Below, piece after piece: positions 3,942 through 50,148 of a stretch of 64,000 nt of DNA. Positions within the stretch are counted from its first letter, which is position 1. Each line of letters opens with the position of its first letter. Below the pieces are notes generated by a model that ran no database searches, was not told where the DNA came from, and was given only the letters and a program-made list of their open reading frames with translations. The position numbers and the translations under genes were made by a program. The DNA is taken from NCBI RefSeq assembly GCF_036327755.1, contig NZ_CP109596.1, forward strand, positions 1,116,001 through 1,180,000, written 5' to 3'. The DNA is from Nocardia sp. NBC_01503 (GTDB lineage: Bacteria; Actinomycetota; Actinomycetes; Mycobacteriales; Mycobacteriaceae).

Positions 3942-4054
3942 TGCGAGATTAACAGCAAATGCGCATGCAGGTCAGGGGCAGTGACTTTGCCCATGACTCG
4001 GTTCGGTGCGCACCCGGCGGTGACCGGCCGGATGGTTTGTGCGGTGGTGAACCG

Positions 4055-4408
4055 CTATGCGCAGCGGAAGCGGAAGGTGGCGGTCGGGGTGATGCCCGGG
4101 ACCGTGCTCACCTGCTGGGCGGCATCACCGTCGAGCGCACAGCCGGACGGGGTGGCGACCTGGACGCGATAGCAGCCCGAGCCGCCGGTGTAGGTGGCGC
4201 TGCCGTCTGTCGCGGTGGTGACGGTGGTGGCCGCGCCGCCCGCGCACGGGGTGACATCGGCGGTGACGCCCGCGATGGGGAACTGTTCGACGCCGTACAC
4301 GGCCTGCACCTTCACCGCGGAGTCACCGGCGGGCGGCTGGGCCGAGGCCAGCGGGGCGAAAACGGTTGCCGCGCCTAGGACGGACATGACGAACAGCGTG
4401 CTGCGCAC
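4055..4408 (-). CDS. Small secreted protein, Cna_B/carboxypeptidase-regulatory-like fold
   Basis: The 117-residue product has a classic signal peptide (MRSTLFVMSVLGAATVFAPL, cleavage likely after ASA). The mature part (VKVQAVYGVEQFPIAGVTAD, TDGSATYTGGSGCYRV) resembles a single Ig-like SpaA/Cna_B or carboxypeptidase-regulatory beta sandwich, with four cysteines that could pair as two disulfides. The start is GTG at 4408 with an AAGGAG site 5 nt upstream. Function unknown; the fold assignment is from pattern only. Confidence 0.65.
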   Translation of the reverse strand: MRSTLFVMSVLGAATVFAPLASAQPPAGDSAVKVQAVYGVEQFPIAGVTADVTPCAGGAATTVTTATDGSATYTGGSGCYRVQVATPSGCALDGDAAQQVSTVPGITPTATFRFRCA

Positions 4409-4539
4409 CGGGACTCCTTACGTCGAACCGGGGCAATTCGCCCCCGCGTCAATATAGGTGCTCGGACCCCGCCGCGTGGGCAGCACGCCGAGCGCACGGC
4501 GGCGCTGGCACATTCACGCCGCCGCGGTGGTCATACGAC

Positions 4540-5661
4540 TCAGACGGCCAGGGCATCCCGAGCGGTGATCGCGCGGGAGGCGCCGTTGGCCGTCCCGGCC
4601 GCCGCCGAGCACTGTTCGGAGGTGAATGCCACTGCGGCACCGAGTACTTCGAGCTCGACCCGATCCCCCACCGTCGGCGCCGCCACGCTCACGCGGCGCA
4701 CCTGAATGGGTTCGGTCCGCCCGTCCAGGTCCAGGGTGAGCATGACATCCGCGCCTCGGAATTCGACGCCGCGCACGGTCGCGCAGCCTGGAGCGCCCTG
4801 GGAAACCACATGGGCGACAAGCTGTTCCGGCCGCATCATGACGGTGGCCGCACCGGCCGGGGCATCGGCCTGCACCGGAATCCGGCCCAGGGCCGTTTCG
4901 GCGGCATCGGCGCGCAGGGTCGCGTCCAGCAGGACGGTATCGCCGAGGAATCCGGCGGTGAACAGATCCGCGGGTGCCGCGTAAACCTGTTCGGGCGTGC
5001 CGACCTGGGTGAATCGGCCCGTGCACATGACCGCGACCTGATCGGCGAAGGACAGCGCCTCCTCCTGATCGTGCGTGACCAGAATGCTGGTCATACCCGC
5101 CGCGCGCAGGGTATCGGCGACGGCCTGCCGGGTCGCGGCGCGCAATCCGGTATCGAGGGCGCTGAATGGTTCGTCGAGCAGCATGAGATCGGGCTTGCGG
5201 GCCATGGCTCGGGCCAAGGCCACCCGCTGCTGCTGTCCGCCGGAGAGCTGATGTGGCCGCCGTTCCGCGTAATCCGCTCCGAGCGAGACCATTTCGAGCA
5301 GTTCGCGCACCTGCTGCCGATGCCGTCGGCGGCCGCCCAATCCGCCATCCAGGCCGTAGGCGATGTTCTGGCCGACGGTGAGGTGCGGGAAGAGCGCACC
5401 GTCCTGCGCCACATAGCCGATCTTGCGGCGGTGCGGCGGCAGCGAGAACCCTTCCCGGGTAACCACTTCCGATCCGACGGTGACCGACCCGGCGTCCGGG
5501 TTCTCGAATCCGGCGATGACCCGCAGCAGCGTGGTCTTACCGCAGCCGGAGGAGCCGACGACCGCGGTGGAGCTGCCATCGGGCACCTCGAGCCGGATAC
5601 CGTCCAGCACCCGGGTCGACCCGAAGGTCTTGGAAACGTTCTCGACGACAAGACGACTCAT
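4540..5661 (-). CDS. fbpC: Ferric iron ABC transporter ATP-binding protein (FbpC-like)
   Basis: This 373-residue ATPase energises import of Fe3+ through the adjacent permease. Walker A is GSSGCGKTT (residues 36-44), the Q-loop is GYVAQDGALF, the signature is LSGGQQQR, Walker B is LMLLDEP, and the H-loop is LVTHDQEEA. A C-terminal TOBE-like domain follows (MMRPEQL onward), as in the FbpC/FutC/PotA branch. The ATG at 5661 overlaps the permease stop (ATGA), so it is the last gene of an operon (binding protein, permease, ATPase) headed by an IdeR box. It could in principle serve another anion or metal, but the order and iron box point to ferric iron. Confidence 0.88.
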   Translation of the reverse strand: MSRLVVENVSKTFGSTRVLDGIRLEVPDGSSTAVVGSSGCGKTTLLRVIAGFENPDAGSVTVGSEVVTREGFSLPPHRRKIGYVAQDGALFPHLTVGQNIAYGLDGGLGGRRRHRQQVRELLEMVSLGADYAERRPHQLSGGQQQRVALARAMARKPDLMLLDEPFSALDTGLRAATRQAVADTLRAAGMTSILVTHDQEEALSFADQVAVMCTGRFTQVGTPEQVYAAPADLFTAGFLGDTVLLDATLRADAAETALGRIPVQADAPAGAATVMMRPEQLVAHVVSQGAPGCATVRGVEFRGADVMLTLDLDGRTEPIQVRRVSVAAPTVGDRVELEVLGAAVAFTSEQCSAAAGTANGASRAITARDALAV

Positions 5662-26123: not shown

Positions 26124-26763
26124 GCCCCCAGTATCAGCCGCCCAACCACCAATCACCCCGAGCCTGGCCGCTCTCCGTCATCCCGGCAGGCTTTTGGCCG
26201 GGATCCACACAGGTTATGGCCGAGCCGGTTTCGATGGATCCCGGCCGACCGCGGCGCGGGCGGCGCTCGAGGCCATGTTGAGCGCGCATGACCCCTATCC
26301 GGCGGGGGTGGTGGACCGTCATTGGAATGTGGTGCCGAGGAATCGCGCCATGGGTGTGCTCATGAACGGGATTCCCGAACATCTTTCGCAATCGCCGAAT
26401 GTGTATCGGCTGGTATTGCATCCGGAAGGGTTGTCCGCGCATCCGGCCAATGCCCGGCAGGTGTACGACCTGTTCCTGGAGCGACTCACCGATCAGGCCA
26501 ATGCCACCGGTGATCCCGCATTGCGCGCGCTCCTCGAAGAGGTTGCCGGATATCCGATTCCGGCCGATCCCGAGGGCGCGGCCTATCCGCCGAGCCCTTT
26601 CGAGGTACCACTCCGTATTCGCACCCCCGCGGGCGAACTCTCCATGTTCAGCGTGATGGCGACCTTCGGCGCACCCGCCGATGTGACGCTCTCGGAGCTG
26701 GCCATCGAACTCTTCTATCCCCTCGACGAATTCACCACCCGAACCCTGCGCGCACTGGCCTGA
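26122..26763 (+). pseudogene. MmyB-type regulator lacking its HTH domain; N-terminus encoded by a REP-like repeat
   Basis: From about residue 45 on, the protein is a clear MmyB/MLTR ligand-binding domain: RAALEAMLSAHDPYPAGVVD, RHWNVVPRNRAMGVLMNG, YRLVLHPEGLSAHPANARQV, TLSELAIELFYPLDEFT. Full-length relatives carry an XRE helix-turn-helix of about 85 residues before it; here that part is gone. In its place residues about 19-40 (RHPGRLLAGIHTGYGRAGF) are the translation of a REP-like palindrome (26175-26248). The frame stays open, and ATG at 26122 overlaps the divergent gene's start, leaving no normal promoter gap; ATG at 26275 is another possible start. It cannot bind DNA as relatives do, so it is most likely a remnant. 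Confidence 0.75.
26175..26248. repeat. REP-like palindromic repeat, copy 1 (right arm truncated)
   Basis: The left arm is complete (CCGTCATCCCGGC... GGCCGGGATCCACAC, 26175-26210). The right arm keeps only GGATCCCGGCCGA (26236-26248) before joining regulator coding sequence. The junction marks a deletion that removed the regulator's 5' half. Confidence 0.75.
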
Positions 26764-27408
26764 TCACTCGGGCAGGGCGAGATATCGCGCCCCCAGCAGA
26801 TTCGCCGTGCGGGTCACGTGGTCGATGATGCGCTCGGTATCGGATTCGATGGCACCGGTGCGCCAGGCGGTGAGCAGCTCCACGAAACCGCCTATGCCCA
26901 TGAGGGTTCCCATGCGCAGATCCGATTCGTCGAAACCGGGCCGCAGGTACGGCCGGCCGGTGGCGATGAGCAGATCGGTGGCCTCGGTGAGCATGGTTTT
27001 GCGGCGTTCCTCCAGTACACGACTACCCGCGTGATCACCGAAGAGGATGCGGGCCGGGCTGTCCACCTGCAGGGCGACCGCGCGGGCGATGGCCTCGTGC
27101 AGGATCTCCAACGGGGGTAGGTCCAGATGTTCGGCCACCACACCCGAGAGCTCGCCGAAGACCTCGAAACAGACCTGGTCCCAGACCGCGGCGAGCAGTT
27201 CGTCGCGGTCGGCGAAGTGTTCGTAGAAGTAGCGGTCGTTCAGTCCGGCGGCGGTGCAGACGCCGCGCATTGTGACTGCGGCCCAGCCGTTTTCGAGCCA
27301 GATCGCCAGCGCCGCGCCGATCAGCCGGCGACGGCGTTCGGTACGGCGTTCCTCCTGGGTTCGCCCACCCCAGGTCCGGGCGGGTGCGCGCACGTTCATC
27401 ATTGACAT
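26764..27408 (-). CDS. TetR-family transcriptional regulator
   Basis: The 214-residue protein has an N-terminal TetR helix-turn-helix: RRRLIGAALAIWLENGWAAV, TMRGVCTAAGLNDRYFYEHF (recognition helix GLNDRYFYEHF). The C-terminal ligand domain is unspecific. It is divergent from the SDR/monooxygenase operon, with a perfect 8+8 palindrome (27450-27467) in the 95-bp gap, so it probably represses both. Its stop abuts that of the truncated MmyB gene with no spacer. Confidence 0.88.
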   Translation of the reverse strand: MSMMNVRAPARTWGGRTQEERRTERRRRLIGAALAIWLENGWAAVTMRGVCTAAGLNDRYFYEHFADRDELLAAVWDQVCFEVFGELSGVVAEHLDLPPLEILHEAIARAVALQVDSPARILFGDHAGSRVLEERRKTMLTEATDLLIATGRPYLRPGFDESDLRMGTLMGIGGFVELLTAWRTGAIESDTERIIDHVTRTANLLGARYLALPE

Positions 27409-27503: not shown

Positions 27504-28340
27504 ATGCGACTCAACCCATTCGGCGGTTCACACCGCACTCGGCAGGCGGACGCGGTGGTGACCGGCGCGGGCAGCGGAATCGGGCGCGCCTTCGCCATCG
27601 AACTCGGCAGGCGCGGCGGGCGGGTGATCTGCTCCGATATCGATGCCGAACGAGCCCGCGAGACAGTCGAATTGGTGAGCGCCACCGGCGGTAAAGCCTT
27701 CGATACGGTCTGTGATGTGCGCCGGATCGAACAGGTCCAGGCGCTGGCGAATACCGCCGAGGAGTGGTTCGGCAAGACCGCCGATGTGGTGATCAACAAT
27801 GCCGGGATCGGCCGCGGCGGTGAGGTTGTCGGCGATACCTCCCTGGAGGAGTGGCATCAGGTCCTCGATATCAATCTGTGGGGTGTCATCCACGGCTGCC
27901 ATGTCTTCGCGCCGCGTCTGCGCGCCGCCGGACAGGGCGCGATCGTGAATGTGGCCTCGGCGGCGGCCTTCGGCTCCGCACCGCGGATGGGCGCCTACAA
28001 CGTGAGCAAGGCGGGCGTGCTCGCCCTGTCCGAGACCCTCGCGGCGGAGCTGTCCGGTACCGGGGTCAGCGTCACCGCACTGTGCCCCACGGCCGTGAAA
28101 ACCAATATCCTGCAGGGTGTTTCGATCGGCGACGAGACCGTCTCGGAGTGGGGTGATCGACTGCTGCGCTGGACCGGCCGTCCGCCCGCCTCGATCGCCC
28201 GCACCACCCTCGACGCCGTCGATCACGGTCAGCTCTACGTGGTCCCACAGATCGAGGCCAAGCTCATCTGGCAGTCCAAACGACTACTGCCCGAACCCTA
28301 TACCCGCGCCGCCGGACTACTGGAGCGGCTGGTGCGGTAG
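27504..28340 (+). CDS. Short-chain dehydrogenase/reductase
   Basis: This 278-residue classical SDR has the cofactor motif TGAGSGIGRAF (about residues 21-31), CSDIDAERA (Asp after strand 2, suggesting NAD preference), NNAGIG (about 96), the catalytic Ser in VNVASAAAF and YNVSK (Tyr/Lys about 166-170). The C-terminal region (VPQIEAKLIWQSKRLLP) is membrane-surface-like. ATG at 27504 has a GGGAG ribosome site. First gene of a four-gene operon with a diiron-like protein and two monooxygenase-type genes; it may oxidise or reduce the alcohol/ketone handled by the monooxygenase. Confidence 0.88.
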   Translation: MRLNPFGGSHRTRQADAVVTGAGSGIGRAFAIELGRRGGRVICSDIDAERARETVELVSATGGKAFDTVCDVRRIEQVQALANTAEEWFGKTADVVINNAGIGRGGEVVGDTSLEEWHQVLDINLWGVIHGCHVFAPRLRAAGQGAIVNVASAAAFGSAPRMGAYNVSKAGVLALSETLAAELSGTGVSVTALCPTAVKTNILQGVSIGDETVSEWGDRLLRWTGRPPASIARTTLDAVDHGQLYVVPQIEAKLIWQSKRLLPEPYTRAAGLLERLVR

Positions 28341-28371: not shown

Positions 28372-29295
28372 ATGGCGTTCGCGTATTCCGACATGCTCAC
28401 GGTGATCAAGGACAAACAGTGGGCACTGGTCGATATCGACTGGGACGCACCGGGAGCCGAGCTCATCACCCCGGAGCAGCGCCCCGGACTCGCGGCCTTC
28501 ATGGCCGATCTCGTATGGATAGAGCATGTGGGGGCGCGCGGCTTCGCGGCCCTCACCAAACGCGCGCCCGAGGGGCCGCTCAAGGAGATCTACCGGTACT
28601 TCCACGCCGAGGAGCAGAAGCACGCCAATGCCGAACTGGCGCTCATGCGGCGCTGGGGCATGCTCGAGGGCGATCAGATGCCGGTGCCCAACAAGAACAT
28701 TCGCATGGTCATCCAGTGGGTGGATCGGTACGGGGATGACCTCACCCTGCCGGTGCTCGGCACCGTGATTCCGTCACTGGAGTGCGCACTGGACGGGGCG
28801 CTGGTCAAGTTCCTGCTCGACGAGGTGCGAGATCCGCTGTGCCATGAGGTGTTCCGGCATATCAACAGCGATGAATCCCGGCACCTGGCCGTCGGATTCC
28901 AGGTGCTCGAACAGCTCGGCGCGGGTCCGATGCGGCGAATCGCCATCGAGACAGCGGGTTTCGCGCTGCGGCCGACGCTGCTCATGGGCGCACTGCTCTA
29001 CACACCGCTGCTGTCCCGCATGTCCACCAACATCATGGCGATGGGCTTGGATGAGGAGAAGCTGTGGAATGCGGTGCGGCGGTACGAGAAGGCCGGTGAG
29101 CGCGCGCCGAGTATCAAGCGGCTACCGCTGTTCCATGTGGTGCGTATGCACGGGATGGCCACCATCAATCGATTGCAGCCGATCCAGGGCATCAATGACG
29201 CATTGAACCGGGCCATCGACCATTTCCCGATTCGGGTGCTCGGTAAGCCGCCGACCTGGTCGCAGGGGCTCACCTATGATCCGGTCGCGAAATGA
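28372..29295 (+). CDS. Ferritin-like (putative diiron) protein
   Basis: The 307-residue helical protein carries spaced metal-ligand patterns of ferritin-like diiron proteins: a first Glu (MADLVWIEHVGARG, about residue 49), EEQKHANAE (about 77-85, ExxH), then a second pair in ECALDGALVKF and NSDESRHLAVGF (ExxH, about 165-176). The catalysed reaction is unknown; relatives sit in monooxygenase and lipid-modification clusters of mycobacteria and nocardiae. It follows the SDR by 31 nt and its stop overlaps the start of the next gene (ATGA). An oxygenase or desaturase role is inference. Confidence 0.7.
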   Translation: MAFAYSDMLTVIKDKQWALVDIDWDAPGAELITPEQRPGLAAFMADLVWIEHVGARGFAALTKRAPEGPLKEIYRYFHAEEQKHANAELALMRRWGMLEGDQMPVPNKNIRMVIQWVDRYGDDLTLPVLGTVIPSLECALDGALVKFLLDEVRDPLCHEVFRHINSDESRHLAVGFQVLEQLGAGPMRRIAIETAGFALRPTLLMGALLYTPLLSRMSTNIMAMGLDEEKLWNAVRRYEKAGERAPSIKRLPLFHVVRMHGMATINRLQPIQGINDALNRAIDHFPIRVLGKPPTWSQGLTYDPVAK

Positions 29296-29921
29296 ATGCC
29301 GCCGCGCGGCTCGGTGATTCGGGCAGGGCGCGCGGCGCGGCGGGCTATACCGGACCGCAGCTGCACTGCGATCGCTGGCGGGATCAGCTCGATCTGCGCA
29401 CCCGGCACGCGGCGGTGATCGGCACCGGCGCGGCGGTCGCCCGAGTGCTGCCGGGTATCGCCGCGCAGGCGCGCAGGGTCACCGTATTCCAGCATGAGCC
29501 GGTCTGGATACTGCCCGCACCACCGGTTCCGGGCCGTCGCCTGCTGCGGCAACTGCCCGATGACCTACTCGGCCTGCTGCCCAGTGCCAGCGCGCGACCG
29601 CTGCCCGGTGCCGCCGGATCGCGGTCGCCGTCCGGACCGGCCGTACCCGGGCCGTCGAATGCTCTCCTCGCGGGCATCCTGCGGCTGGCCGCCAGTGCGA
29701 ATCTTCGTGTCTCGGTCCGTGATTCCTGGATACGGCGGCAGCTGACACCCGATATCGCCACCGGCGTACGCCTGCACGGCGGCTACTACCGGGCGCTGAA
29801 CCGCCCCAACTGCGAACTCGTCACCTGGCCGATCGCCCGGCTCGCACCCCTCGGTATCCGCACCGTGGACGGCGTCGAGCATCGGGTGGACTGCATCATC
29901 TACGCGGAGGACAGACCGTGA
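29292..29921 (+). CDS. Free-standing NADPH-domain fragment of a Baeyer-Villiger-type monooxygenase
   Basis: The 209-residue product aligns only with the middle of the full-length monooxygenase that follows. It begins at the BVMO fingerprint (YTGPQLHCDRW against FTGTVMHTSRW downstream), continues through the second Rossmann motif (AVIGTGAAVARVLPGIA), the FQHEPVWILP segment, and RRQLTPDIATGVRLHGGYYR, and stops at HRVDCIIYAED where the full protein has ATGF. Both FAD-binding parts are absent. It is not obviously decayed: it is coupled at both ends, overlapping the diiron gene stop (ATGA) and the monooxygenase start (GTGA). It may be a degenerate paralogue or an accessory subunit. Confidence 0.65.
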   Translation: MNAAARLGDSGRARGAAGYTGPQLHCDRWRDQLDLRTRHAAVIGTGAAVARVLPGIAAQARRVTVFQHEPVWILPAPPVPGRRLLRQLPDDLLGLLPSASARPLPGAAGSRSPSGPAVPGPSNALLAGILRLAASANLRVSVRDSWIRRQLTPDIATGVRLHGGYYRALNRPNCELVTWPIARLAPLGIRTVDGVEHRVDCIIYAEDRP

Positions 29922-31453
29922 ACAGCACCGTGGTGGATCACGAGATCATTATCGTCGGGGCCGGATTCTCCGGAATCGGTACGGCGATAGCCCTGCGCCA
30001 GGCGGGATTCGACGACTTCCTCATGGTCGACGATGCCGACGGGGTGGGCGGGACCTGGCATTGGAACACCTATCCCGGTATCGCCGTGGATATTCCGTCG
30101 TTCAGCTATCAGTACTCGTTCGAACAGCAGCGCACCTGGTCCCGGGTGTACGCGCCCGGACGGGAATTGAAGGCCTATGCCGAGCACTGCGTTCAGAAGT
30201 ACGGGCTGCGTCCGCGAATTCGATTCTCCACCACCATCGACCGAGCCGATTTCGATGAGGCACTGCACCTTTGGCGACTGCGCACCGGTGACGGCGAGGA
30301 GCTCACGGCGCGGTATGTCATCGGCGCGACCGGAGTGCTGACCCGGCCGAAGATGCCGGAAATCGCCGGGGCGGAACGCTTCACCGGCACGGTCATGCAT
30401 ACCTCGCGCTGGGACCATGGCGTGGATCTGCGCGGAAAGCGCGTGGGGATCATCGGCACCGGGGCCTCCGCGGTGCAGGTGATTCCGGAGATAGCCGCCG
30501 AGGTCGCGGAACTCGTTGTCTTCCAGCGCACTCCGATCTGGTGCCTGCCGCGCCCCGATACCGCGCTGCCGCCCCTGGTGCATCAGCTGCTGGCCCTGCC
30601 CGGCGGAAAACTGCTGACCCGCTGGATGAGCCAGGCCTTCGTGGAGCTCACCTTCCCGCTGGCCGCGCACTATTACCGGGTGCTGCCCATGTCCAAGCTG
30701 GGCGAGCGCACCGGCCTGGCGCATTTGAAGGATCAGGTGGACGATCCGGGGGTGCGCGCGAAACTCACCCCGGACTACGCGCTCGGCTGTAAGCGGCCGT
30801 CCTTCTCCAATGACTATCTGAAAACGTTCAATCGGGCGAATGTCCATCTGGATACCGCGCCGATCACCGAGATCACCGCGACCGGTGTCCGCACCGCGCA
30901 GGCGCACCATCAGGTGGATGTGCTGATCATGGCCACCGGCTTCAAGGTGATGGAGTCGGGCAATATGCCCACCTTCGACCTGCACGGCACCGGCGGTGTG
31001 CGCCTGGAGGATTGGTGGGACACCCACCGCCTGCAAGCCTACGAGGGCGTCAGCGTTCCGGGCTTCCCCAACTTCTTCACCATCATCGGCCCGTACGGCT
31101 ACAACGGCTCCTCCTATTTCGCCCTCATCGAAATGCAGACCCGGCACATCCTGCGGCTACTGCGCCAGGCCCGCCGCGGGAAAGCCACCAAGATCGAGGT
31201 CACCGCCGCGGCCAATGACCGCTTCTTCCAGGAGATGCTCGACCGCCGCGGCACCCAGGTCTTCTGGCAGGAATCCTGCACCGTGGCCAACAGCTACTAC
31301 TTCGACAAGAACGGCGATGTGCCGCTGCGCGCCATGACCACACCCGAAGGTTTCTGGCGCGCAGGCCATTTCGATCTCAACGACTACACCTTCGACAGGC
31401 TCGGCAAGCGTGACAGCACGCCGGCGACCGCCACCCGAGCCGCCGTGCACTAA
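29918..31453 (+). CDS. Flavin-containing monooxygenase, Baeyer-Villiger type
   Basis: The 511-residue enzyme binds FAD through EIIIVGAGFSGIGTAIAL (about residues 9-26) and NADPH through VGIIGTGASAVQVIPEIA (about 176-193). The family fingerprint FTGTVMHTSRWDHG (about 154-167) lies between. It should insert oxygen next to a ketone or oxidise a heteroatom with O2 and NADPH. The start is GTG at 29918 with GGAGG 7 nt upstream, overlapping the preceding stop. The operon (SDR, diiron-like, fragment, monooxygenase) under a TetR recalls mycobacterial cell-envelope or xenobiotic monooxygenase loci such as mymA/ethA, but the gene set is not the same. Confidence 0.9.
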   Translation: MNSTVVDHEIIIVGAGFSGIGTAIALRQAGFDDFLMVDDADGVGGTWHWNTYPGIAVDIPSFSYQYSFEQQRTWSRVYAPGRELKAYAEHCVQKYGLRPRIRFSTTIDRADFDEALHLWRLRTGDGEELTARYVIGATGVLTRPKMPEIAGAERFTGTVMHTSRWDHGVDLRGKRVGIIGTGASAVQVIPEIAAEVAELVVFQRTPIWCLPRPDTALPPLVHQLLALPGGKLLTRWMSQAFVELTFPLAAHYYRVLPMSKLGERTGLAHLKDQVDDPGVRAKLTPDYALGCKRPSFSNDYLKTFNRANVHLDTAPITEITATGVRTAQAHHQVDVLIMATGFKVMESGNMPTFDLHGTGGVRLEDWWDTHRLQAYEGVSVPGFPNFFTIIGPYGYNGSSYFALIEMQTRHILRLLRQARRGKATKIEVTAAANDRFFQEMLDRRGTQVFWQESCTVANSYYFDKNGDVPLRAMTTPEGFWRAGHFDLNDYTFDRLGKRDSTPATATRAAVH

Positions 31454-31455
31454 CG

Positions 31456-31552
31456 CCCCCGTCATCCCGGCATGCTCTTGGCCGGGATCCTCACCCGGAA
31501 GTGCTGCCCTGCACGGTGTGGATCCCGGCCGAAAACGCGCCGGGATGACGGG
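31456..31552. repeat. REP-like palindromic repeat, copy 2 (complete, 97 bp)
   Basis: The two arms (31456-31492 and 31516-31552) are inverted and largely identical. Each arm is itself a hairpin (ATCCCGGC / GCCGGGAT). The centre TGCTGCCCTGCACGGTGTG is shared with copy 5. It fills the space between two convergent stops (31453 and 31555) almost exactly. Confidence 0.88.
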
Positions 31553-31554
31553 GC

Positions 31555-36803: not shown

Positions 36804-36838
36804 CCCGTCATCCCGGCGCGCTTGTGGCCGGGATCCAC
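36804..36838. repeat. REP-like repeat, copy 3 (single left arm)
   Basis: CCCGTCATCCCGGC... GGCCGGGATCCAC in one arm only, folding as ATCCCGGC/GCCGGGAT. It sits between the convergent stops of the HNH lipoprotein (36780) and the sulfurtransferase (36850). Its internal GCTTGTGG is shared only with the arm at 37767. Confidence 0.8.
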
Positions 36839-36849
36839 GCCCTCAGGTA

Positions 36850-37766: not shown

Positions 37767-37803
37767 GTGTGGATCCCGGCCACAAGCACGCCGGGATGAC
37801 GAG
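37767..37803. repeat. REP-like repeat, copy 4 (single right arm)
   Basis: GTGTGGATCCCGGCC... GCCGGGATGACGAG is the inverted counterpart of the arm at 36804; both carry the same CACAAGC/GCTTGTG loop. It lies upstream of the sulfurtransferase start. Confidence 0.8.
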
Positions 37804-37817
37804 GCGAGCAGCCCGCC

Positions 37818-43552: not shown

Positions 43553-43647
43553 CCCGTCGTCCCGGCATGCTTTTGGCCGGGATCCACACCCCGATGTGCT
43601 GCCCTGCACGGTGTGAATCCCGGCCAAGAACGCGTCGGGATGACGGG
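43553..43647. repeat. REP-like palindromic repeat, copy 5 (complete)
   Basis: Two inverted arms flank the same centre (TGCTGCCCTGCACGGTGTG) as copy 2. Minor changes (GTCGT for GTCAT, GTGAATCC for GTGGATCC) show drift. It lies between the convergent stops of the E2 gene (43526) and the thioesterase gene (43675). Confidence 0.88.
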
Positions 43648-43674
43648 GAGACTCCCCGCCCATATGACTAGCGG

Positions 43675-47895: not shown

Positions 47896-47920
47896 GCGGA
47901 CGCGGTCGCGGGCCGCCGGG

Positions 47921-47957
47921 GTGTGGATCCCGGCCAAAAACATGCCGGGACGACGGG
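47921..47957. repeat. REP-like repeat, copy 6 (single right arm)
   Basis: GTGTGGATCCCGGCC... GCCGGGACGACGGG, one arm only, between the convergent stops of the MFS gene (47895) and the MarR gene (48020). Confidence 0.8.
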
Positions 47958-50052: not shown

Positions 50053-50064
50053 CCCGGCACCAAC

Positions 50065-50148
50065 CCCCGTCTCATCCCGGCGCGCTTCTTGGCCGGGATC
50101 CACTTCGAACAGGTGGATCCCGGCCAAAAGCATGCCGGGATGACGGGG
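50065..50148. repeat. REP-like palindromic repeat, copy 7 (complete, short centre)
   Basis: Both inverted arms are present (50065-50102 and 50112-50148), but the centre is only about 10 nt, without the TGCTGCC... core of copies 2 and 5. It lies between the convergent stops of the MFS gene (50052) and the peptidase E gene (50165). Confidence 0.88.

Follow-up and report, generated by a model that had tools for sequence, protein, structure and literature searches.

A domain-sized descendant of a Baeyer-Villiger monooxygenase, a predicted pseudoenzyme, is retained behind a diiron gene in Nocardia

In type I Baeyer-Villiger monooxygenases (BVMOs), R337 serves as the catalytic arginine, and the lysine and arginine residues K336 and R214 bind NADPH (PMC4966971). 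The second BVMO fingerprint has been said to imply a complete enzyme, and this motif can be degenerate (PMC9044951). A search of the open-licence literature found no description of BVMO pseudoenzymes or of an operon combining a BVMO with a ferritin-like protein. Here we analysed such an operon in Nocardia sp. NBC_01503. The window is the whole 64,000-nucleotide stretch of contig NZ_CP109596.1 (positions 1,116,001 to 1,180,000), and all positions below are counted from its first letter.

The first gene of the operon encodes a short-chain dehydrogenase (SDR) on the forward strand at 27504..28340 (Pfam adh_short, E=2.5e-46; syntenic), and a TetR-type regulator is encoded divergently from the operon on the reverse strand at 26764..27408 (Pfam TetR_N, E=1.6e-9), in a position kept in most of the Nocardia and mycobacterial operons. 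The SDR gene is followed on the forward strand by the gene for a ferritin-like diiron protein of type A (28372..29295), which showed a weak match to AurF/rubrerythrin and in which the ligand-type residues E51, E81xxH84, E137 and E168xxH171 were near-invariant among 57 homologues. The gene under study (29292..29921, forward strand), hereafter the short gene, encodes 209 aa in an uninterrupted frame from ATG to TGA. It is followed by the gene for a full-length type I BVMO of 511 aa (29918..31453, forward strand), designated BVMO2 and assigned by family match and synteny. The closest named relative for this operon was Nocardia sp. SYP-A9097 (diiron protein, 95%).

The earlier note on this DNA had reported that the short gene overlaps each neighbour by 4 nt and holds no stop or frameshift, and both statements were borne out. 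The stop codon of the diiron gene and the start codon of the short gene share ATGA at 29292..29295, and the stop codon of the short gene shares GTGA at 29918..29921 with the start of BVMO2, both on the forward strand. The start of the short gene lay on the diiron stop codon in 43/43 complete orthologues (ATGA in 42, GTGA in one), and in 39 of the 43 its stop overlapped an in-frame start codon of the following monooxygenase. Beyond the end of the BVMO2 gene, a palindromic repeat of about 97 bp, made of two 48-nt arms with 79% complementarity, lies at 31457-31553. Further copies are found in the window at 43553-43648 and 50057-50148, and half copies at 26175-26210, 36804-36842, 37767-37805 and 47919-47957.

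BLASTP aligned residues 15-205 of the short protein with residues 151-339 of the 511-aa BVMO2 (32%, E=3e-25), and a profile from 17 short-gene orthologues aligned with residues 156-380 of the 541 residues of the cyclohexanone monooxygenase 5m0z (E=4e-21). As the match was limited to the fingerprint and the NADPH-domain stretch, both FAD parts are absent from the short protein. The gene had been described as matching a BVMO from the FxGxxxHxxxW fingerprint to the end of the NADPH domain, which was right as to the missing FAD parts and too generous as to the rest: the short protein does not amount to a complete NADPH domain, some of whose helical portion is lacking or has given way to a variable linker. 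Neither Pfam nor NCBIfam offered a usable family for the short protein of the window.

Three parts were distinguished along the short gene, all on the forward strand. A conserved N block (residues 18-77, 29343..29522), recognized in the alignment, contains the degenerate BVMO fingerprint and the first Rossmann unit. A hypervariable linker (residues 78-135, 29523..29696), which varied in length among the 43 copies and had low AF2 confidence, takes the place of the NADPH domain's helical part. A conserved C block (residues 136-206, 29697..29909), with invariant residues, was the most constrained part. For the 209-aa window protein, AF2 gave a model with a pLDDT of 70 that was weak in the linker and reached high confidence in the two blocks only. 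A compact member from N. mexicana was modelled with a pLDDT of 83 and a pTM of 0.78, and BVMOs were the best among the fold matches listed for this model, with a TM of ~0.72 on the query.

The type-A diiron gene of this operon was detected in 45 of 152 Nocardia genomes (~30%), and the short gene came directly after it in 44/44 evaluable genomes; in the remaining carrier (G164) the contig ends after the diiron gene, and in one of the 44 (G013) the short gene was split over two contigs. A search for the same short protein next to monooxygenases in other genomes, as had been suggested, found it in every one of the 44 evaluable Nocardia operons, flanked each time by the same two genes. The complete short genes were uninterrupted in 43/43 cases, encoded 165-262 aa and lay directly behind the diiron gene. 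The carriers include, by name, N. seriolae, N. otitidiscaviarum, N. cyriacigeorgica, N. mexicana, N. wallacei and N. uniformis. In three genomes (G001, G025 and G180; loci L033, L031 and L104) the short genes encoded 253-262 aa and had very long linkers rich in Pro, Ala and Ser, and in G125 (L112) the diiron gene, short gene and BVMO2 were present and an SDR match was absent at the locus. Outside Nocardia, no short gene was found among the matches listed from 399 genomes of the order, each non-Nocardia match belonging to an open frame that is at least 496 aa long. As these listed matches were all full-length, the reduction looks confined to Nocardia.

The mycobacterial operon has the order TetR/SDR-diiron-BVMO1-BVMO2, in which the diiron protein (64%) and BVMO2 (62-64%) correspond to those of the window and a full-length BVMO1 of about 480-505 aa occupies the place of the short gene (e.g., loci L151, L171, L175, L189 and L197). 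In a tree of 87 sequences, the short proteins grouped as a single clade nested in the BVMO1 lineage (100/100), and this lineage including the short proteins was split from BVMO2, again with 100/100. The stem branch of the short clade was long (1.11). With 160 columns and this long stem, the tree does not decide which BVMO1 group, mycobacterial type A or type B, is sister to the short clade; type A is the one indicated by synteny. In the diiron tree, the Nocardia type-A proteins formed one clade (99), and neither type A nor type B was clean as a whole. The genome that contains the window also harbors a paralogous type-B operon, hydrolase-SDR-diiron-BVMO1 (L079:1381-5746, corresponding to G000:C1:4841380-4845745), an arrangement that was near-universal in Nocardia. 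Judged by synteny and tree, the short gene is a reduced orthologue of BVMO1 and no new gene, and the simplest history would be a single origin by BVMO1 reduction, then a fast phase, then renewed constraint.

The renewed constraint was evident in substitution patterns. A codon model fitted on the diiron topology gave dN/dS values of 0.097 for the N block, 0.086 for the C block and 0.049 for the diiron gene, which are approximate because dS was near saturation for most pairs. For the whole short gene, the closest pairs gave 0.15-0.27 (Nei-Gojobori). Each short ORF holds about 13 nonsense-site equivalents and the tree spans many substitutions per codon; given this count and this depth, one would not expect neutral evolution to have left the ORF open 43 times. 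Moreover, positions fixed in BVMO1 had been refixed to other residues (S to A, V to A and T/S to H) in 28/28 sampled short proteins, a pattern that speaks for new constraint and against gradual decay. A compact Rossmann-type core is left, held by purifying selection. A decaying pseudogene, or an assembly or annotation artefact of this genome, would also appear as a truncated homologue of a gene that is full-length in relatives. We rejected this explanation, to which we give hardly any credence, on the 43/43 complete copies open in independent assemblies and the low dN/dS. It is almost certain that the short gene represents a reduced orthologue on which purifying selection acts. The earlier note had reasoned that a full-length gene in relatives would make the short gene only a remnant. 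The full-length gene does exist in Mycobacterium and the short gene is a remnant by origin, but the word "only" is contradicted by the conservation.

Conservation also bears on the idea that the remnant is kept open for translational coupling alone, as a ribosome spacer between the diiron gene and BVMO2 in which the amino acids are irrelevant. The overlaps are kept at both ends despite the length range of 165-262 aa, as a spacer would have it, and the linker is unconstrained. In G191 (L108), an in-frame copy of the palindromic repeat (78% identical) is even inserted in the linker, indicating that the linker tolerates change. A spacer would, however, freely shrink or drift, whereas the two blocks showed approximate dN/dS values below 0.1 with invariant residues, and 40 loci with BVMO2 only, described below, manage without one. 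We therefore regard a mere spacer as improbable.

The losses within the conserved core were examined by alignment and motif counts. The Arg equivalent to R337 (numbering taken from the PAMO alignment) was present in 44/44 BVMO1 and 15/15 BVMO2 sequences and deleted in 28/28 aligned short proteins, which share a 3-residue deletion located at 29769..29774 on the forward strand of the window. None of the 43 complete copies contained VFQRT, GxKR, ATG[FY] or the first BVMO fingerprint [GA]GxWx4[FY]P[GM]x3D. The second fingerprint FxGx3Hx3W[PD] was found in its strict form in 2/43 and in the relaxed form [FY]xGx3Hx3W in 21/43, the window copy having YTGPQLHCDRWR. The Rossmann motif GxGx2[GA] of the NADPH domain was retained in 18/43, the FAD domain being absent. 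GxG was changed to GxA in seven short proteins, and the first Gly of the motif was invariant.

By sequence, homology, conservation and motif counts, the 209-aa product of 29292..29921 is a BVMO-derived pseudoenzyme that would be unable to act as a monooxygenase any longer: the catalytic residues were lost, and purifying selection continued after the loss. Tree, profile and fold indicate descent from type I BVMOs, but the short protein fails their motif tests and is, on these, no member of the family. Cofactor binding appears to have been lost as well. The gene product had been labelled an NADPH-domain protein. It is not clearly an NADPH-binding unit, given that the NADPH-phosphate and catalytic residues were lost in 43/43 complete copies, and "NADPH-domain protein" is probably wrong as a functional label. 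The retention of precisely the Rossmann core, with the first Gly of its motif invariant, would suit a soluble sensor for NADP(H) or some other ligand, with a regulatory role towards the operon or the diiron enzyme. With GxGxx[GA] in 18/43, GxA in seven, and VFQRT and GxKR in 0/43, the NADPH-phosphate contacts are nevertheless gone, and such a sensor has little to recommend it.

The presence and absence of the three genes were then compared with regard to the likely partner. In none of the 44 evaluable Nocardia genomes did a type-A diiron gene occur without the short gene. BVMO2 was present in 82 of the 152 Nocardia genomes at a strict cut-off, and 40 of these 82 carried BVMO2 at the locus without the type-A diiron gene and without the short gene. 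The 40 BVMO2-only loci (L091-L099 and L208-L238) sit at the same chromosomal position as the operon, close to amidohydrolase and SWIM/SNF2 genes, and some of them read SDR-BVMO2. The state with or without the diiron and short genes changed 3-5 times on the BVMO2 tree. As BVMO2-only loci exist and the diiron gene was never alone, the diiron and short genes are gained or lost jointly and BVMO2 can do without them. In addition, the full-length BVMO1 loci, which had been identified through their similarity to the short protein and not via the diiron gene, all had a diiron gene directly upstream. The earlier note had proposed an accessory subunit of either the following monooxygenase or the diiron-like protein. 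The gene is retained and translationally coupled, and the 44 operons and purifying selection make its product very likely an accessory, non-catalytic component and not debris. Of the two candidate partners, the presence/absence pattern favours the diiron protein, although joint gain and loss of the diiron and short genes can be a by-product of adjacency.

The other choice, a non-catalytic subunit of BVMO2 acting within a hetero-oligomer or as a regulator, is in keeping with the gene order, with the stop-start overlaps with BVMO2 in 39/43 copies and with the finding that every short gene adjoins a BVMO2 where the contig allows. The mirror-tree distance correlation was also slightly higher with BVMO2 (partial r of 0.41 against 0.22 for the diiron protein), a slight lean that does not discriminate between the two. 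Against it, the 40 genomes with BVMO2 at the locus and no short gene imply that BVMO2 does not need the short protein. In G118 (L118), moreover, the BVMO2 match (4043-5544) is split over two frames, by disruption or sequencing error, and the diiron and short genes are intact. We consider a subunit of BVMO2 unlikely.

We somewhat favour, from these sequence comparisons, the view that the short protein was inherited from a lost BVMO1 and serves the diiron protein as a non-catalytic partner. By synteny and tree, a full-length BVMO1 once followed the diiron gene in this operon, as it still does in mycobacteria. In the Nocardia lineage the two FAD lobes, the NADPH-domain helical insert and the residues for catalysis and for NADPH-phosphate contact were then lost. 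The short protein may scaffold or stabilise the diiron protein, or be its regulatory subunit, through a docking face that may have been present already in BVMO1, and BVMO2 would supply the Baeyer-Villiger step. The stop-start coupling would allow the diiron, short and BVMO2 proteins to be made together. More tentatively, a monooxygenase cut to one dead domain might be an obligate subunit of a diiron enzyme, in which case it would reveal physical complexes between the widespread diiron proteins of this kind and their BVMO neighbours throughout Mycobacteriales.

The locus offers a natural example in which an enzyme was pared down to one domain that selection has since maintained, and relatives still possess the full-length state. 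The residues that were kept thus indicate which part is still important. The locus also provides a handle on the uncharacterised diiron protein, as every full-length BVMO1 locus recovered lies directly behind such a gene and the remnant suggests physical pairing. For the rule that the second fingerprint implies a complete enzyme (PMC9044951), the short proteins are an exception, about half of the copies carrying the relaxed motif without the rest of the enzyme.

Compared with type I BVMOs such as PAMO (1w4x), TmCHMO (5m0z) and STMO (4ap3), which have the nearest fold, the short protein is homologous over the fingerprint and NADPH-domain region but lacks the FAD lobes, the first fingerprint, the catalytic Arg, the NADPH-phosphate residues and the ATG motif. 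It shares with the mycobacterial BVMO1 of M. parascrofulaceum (L151) and M. hippocampi (L189) the sequence lineage and the place between the diiron gene and BVMO2, whereas the mycobacterial protein is full length (~480-505 aa) with the BVMO motifs present. In the type-B operon (L079), BVMO1 follows the diiron gene directly with an ATGA overlap, as the short gene does, but is full length and has no adjoining BVMO2. A further likeness is found in multicomponent diiron oxygenases, where a catalytically dead homologous subunit is kept as a partner; the dead subunit there is a ferritin-like paralogue, whereas the short protein is a reduced flavoprotein domain.
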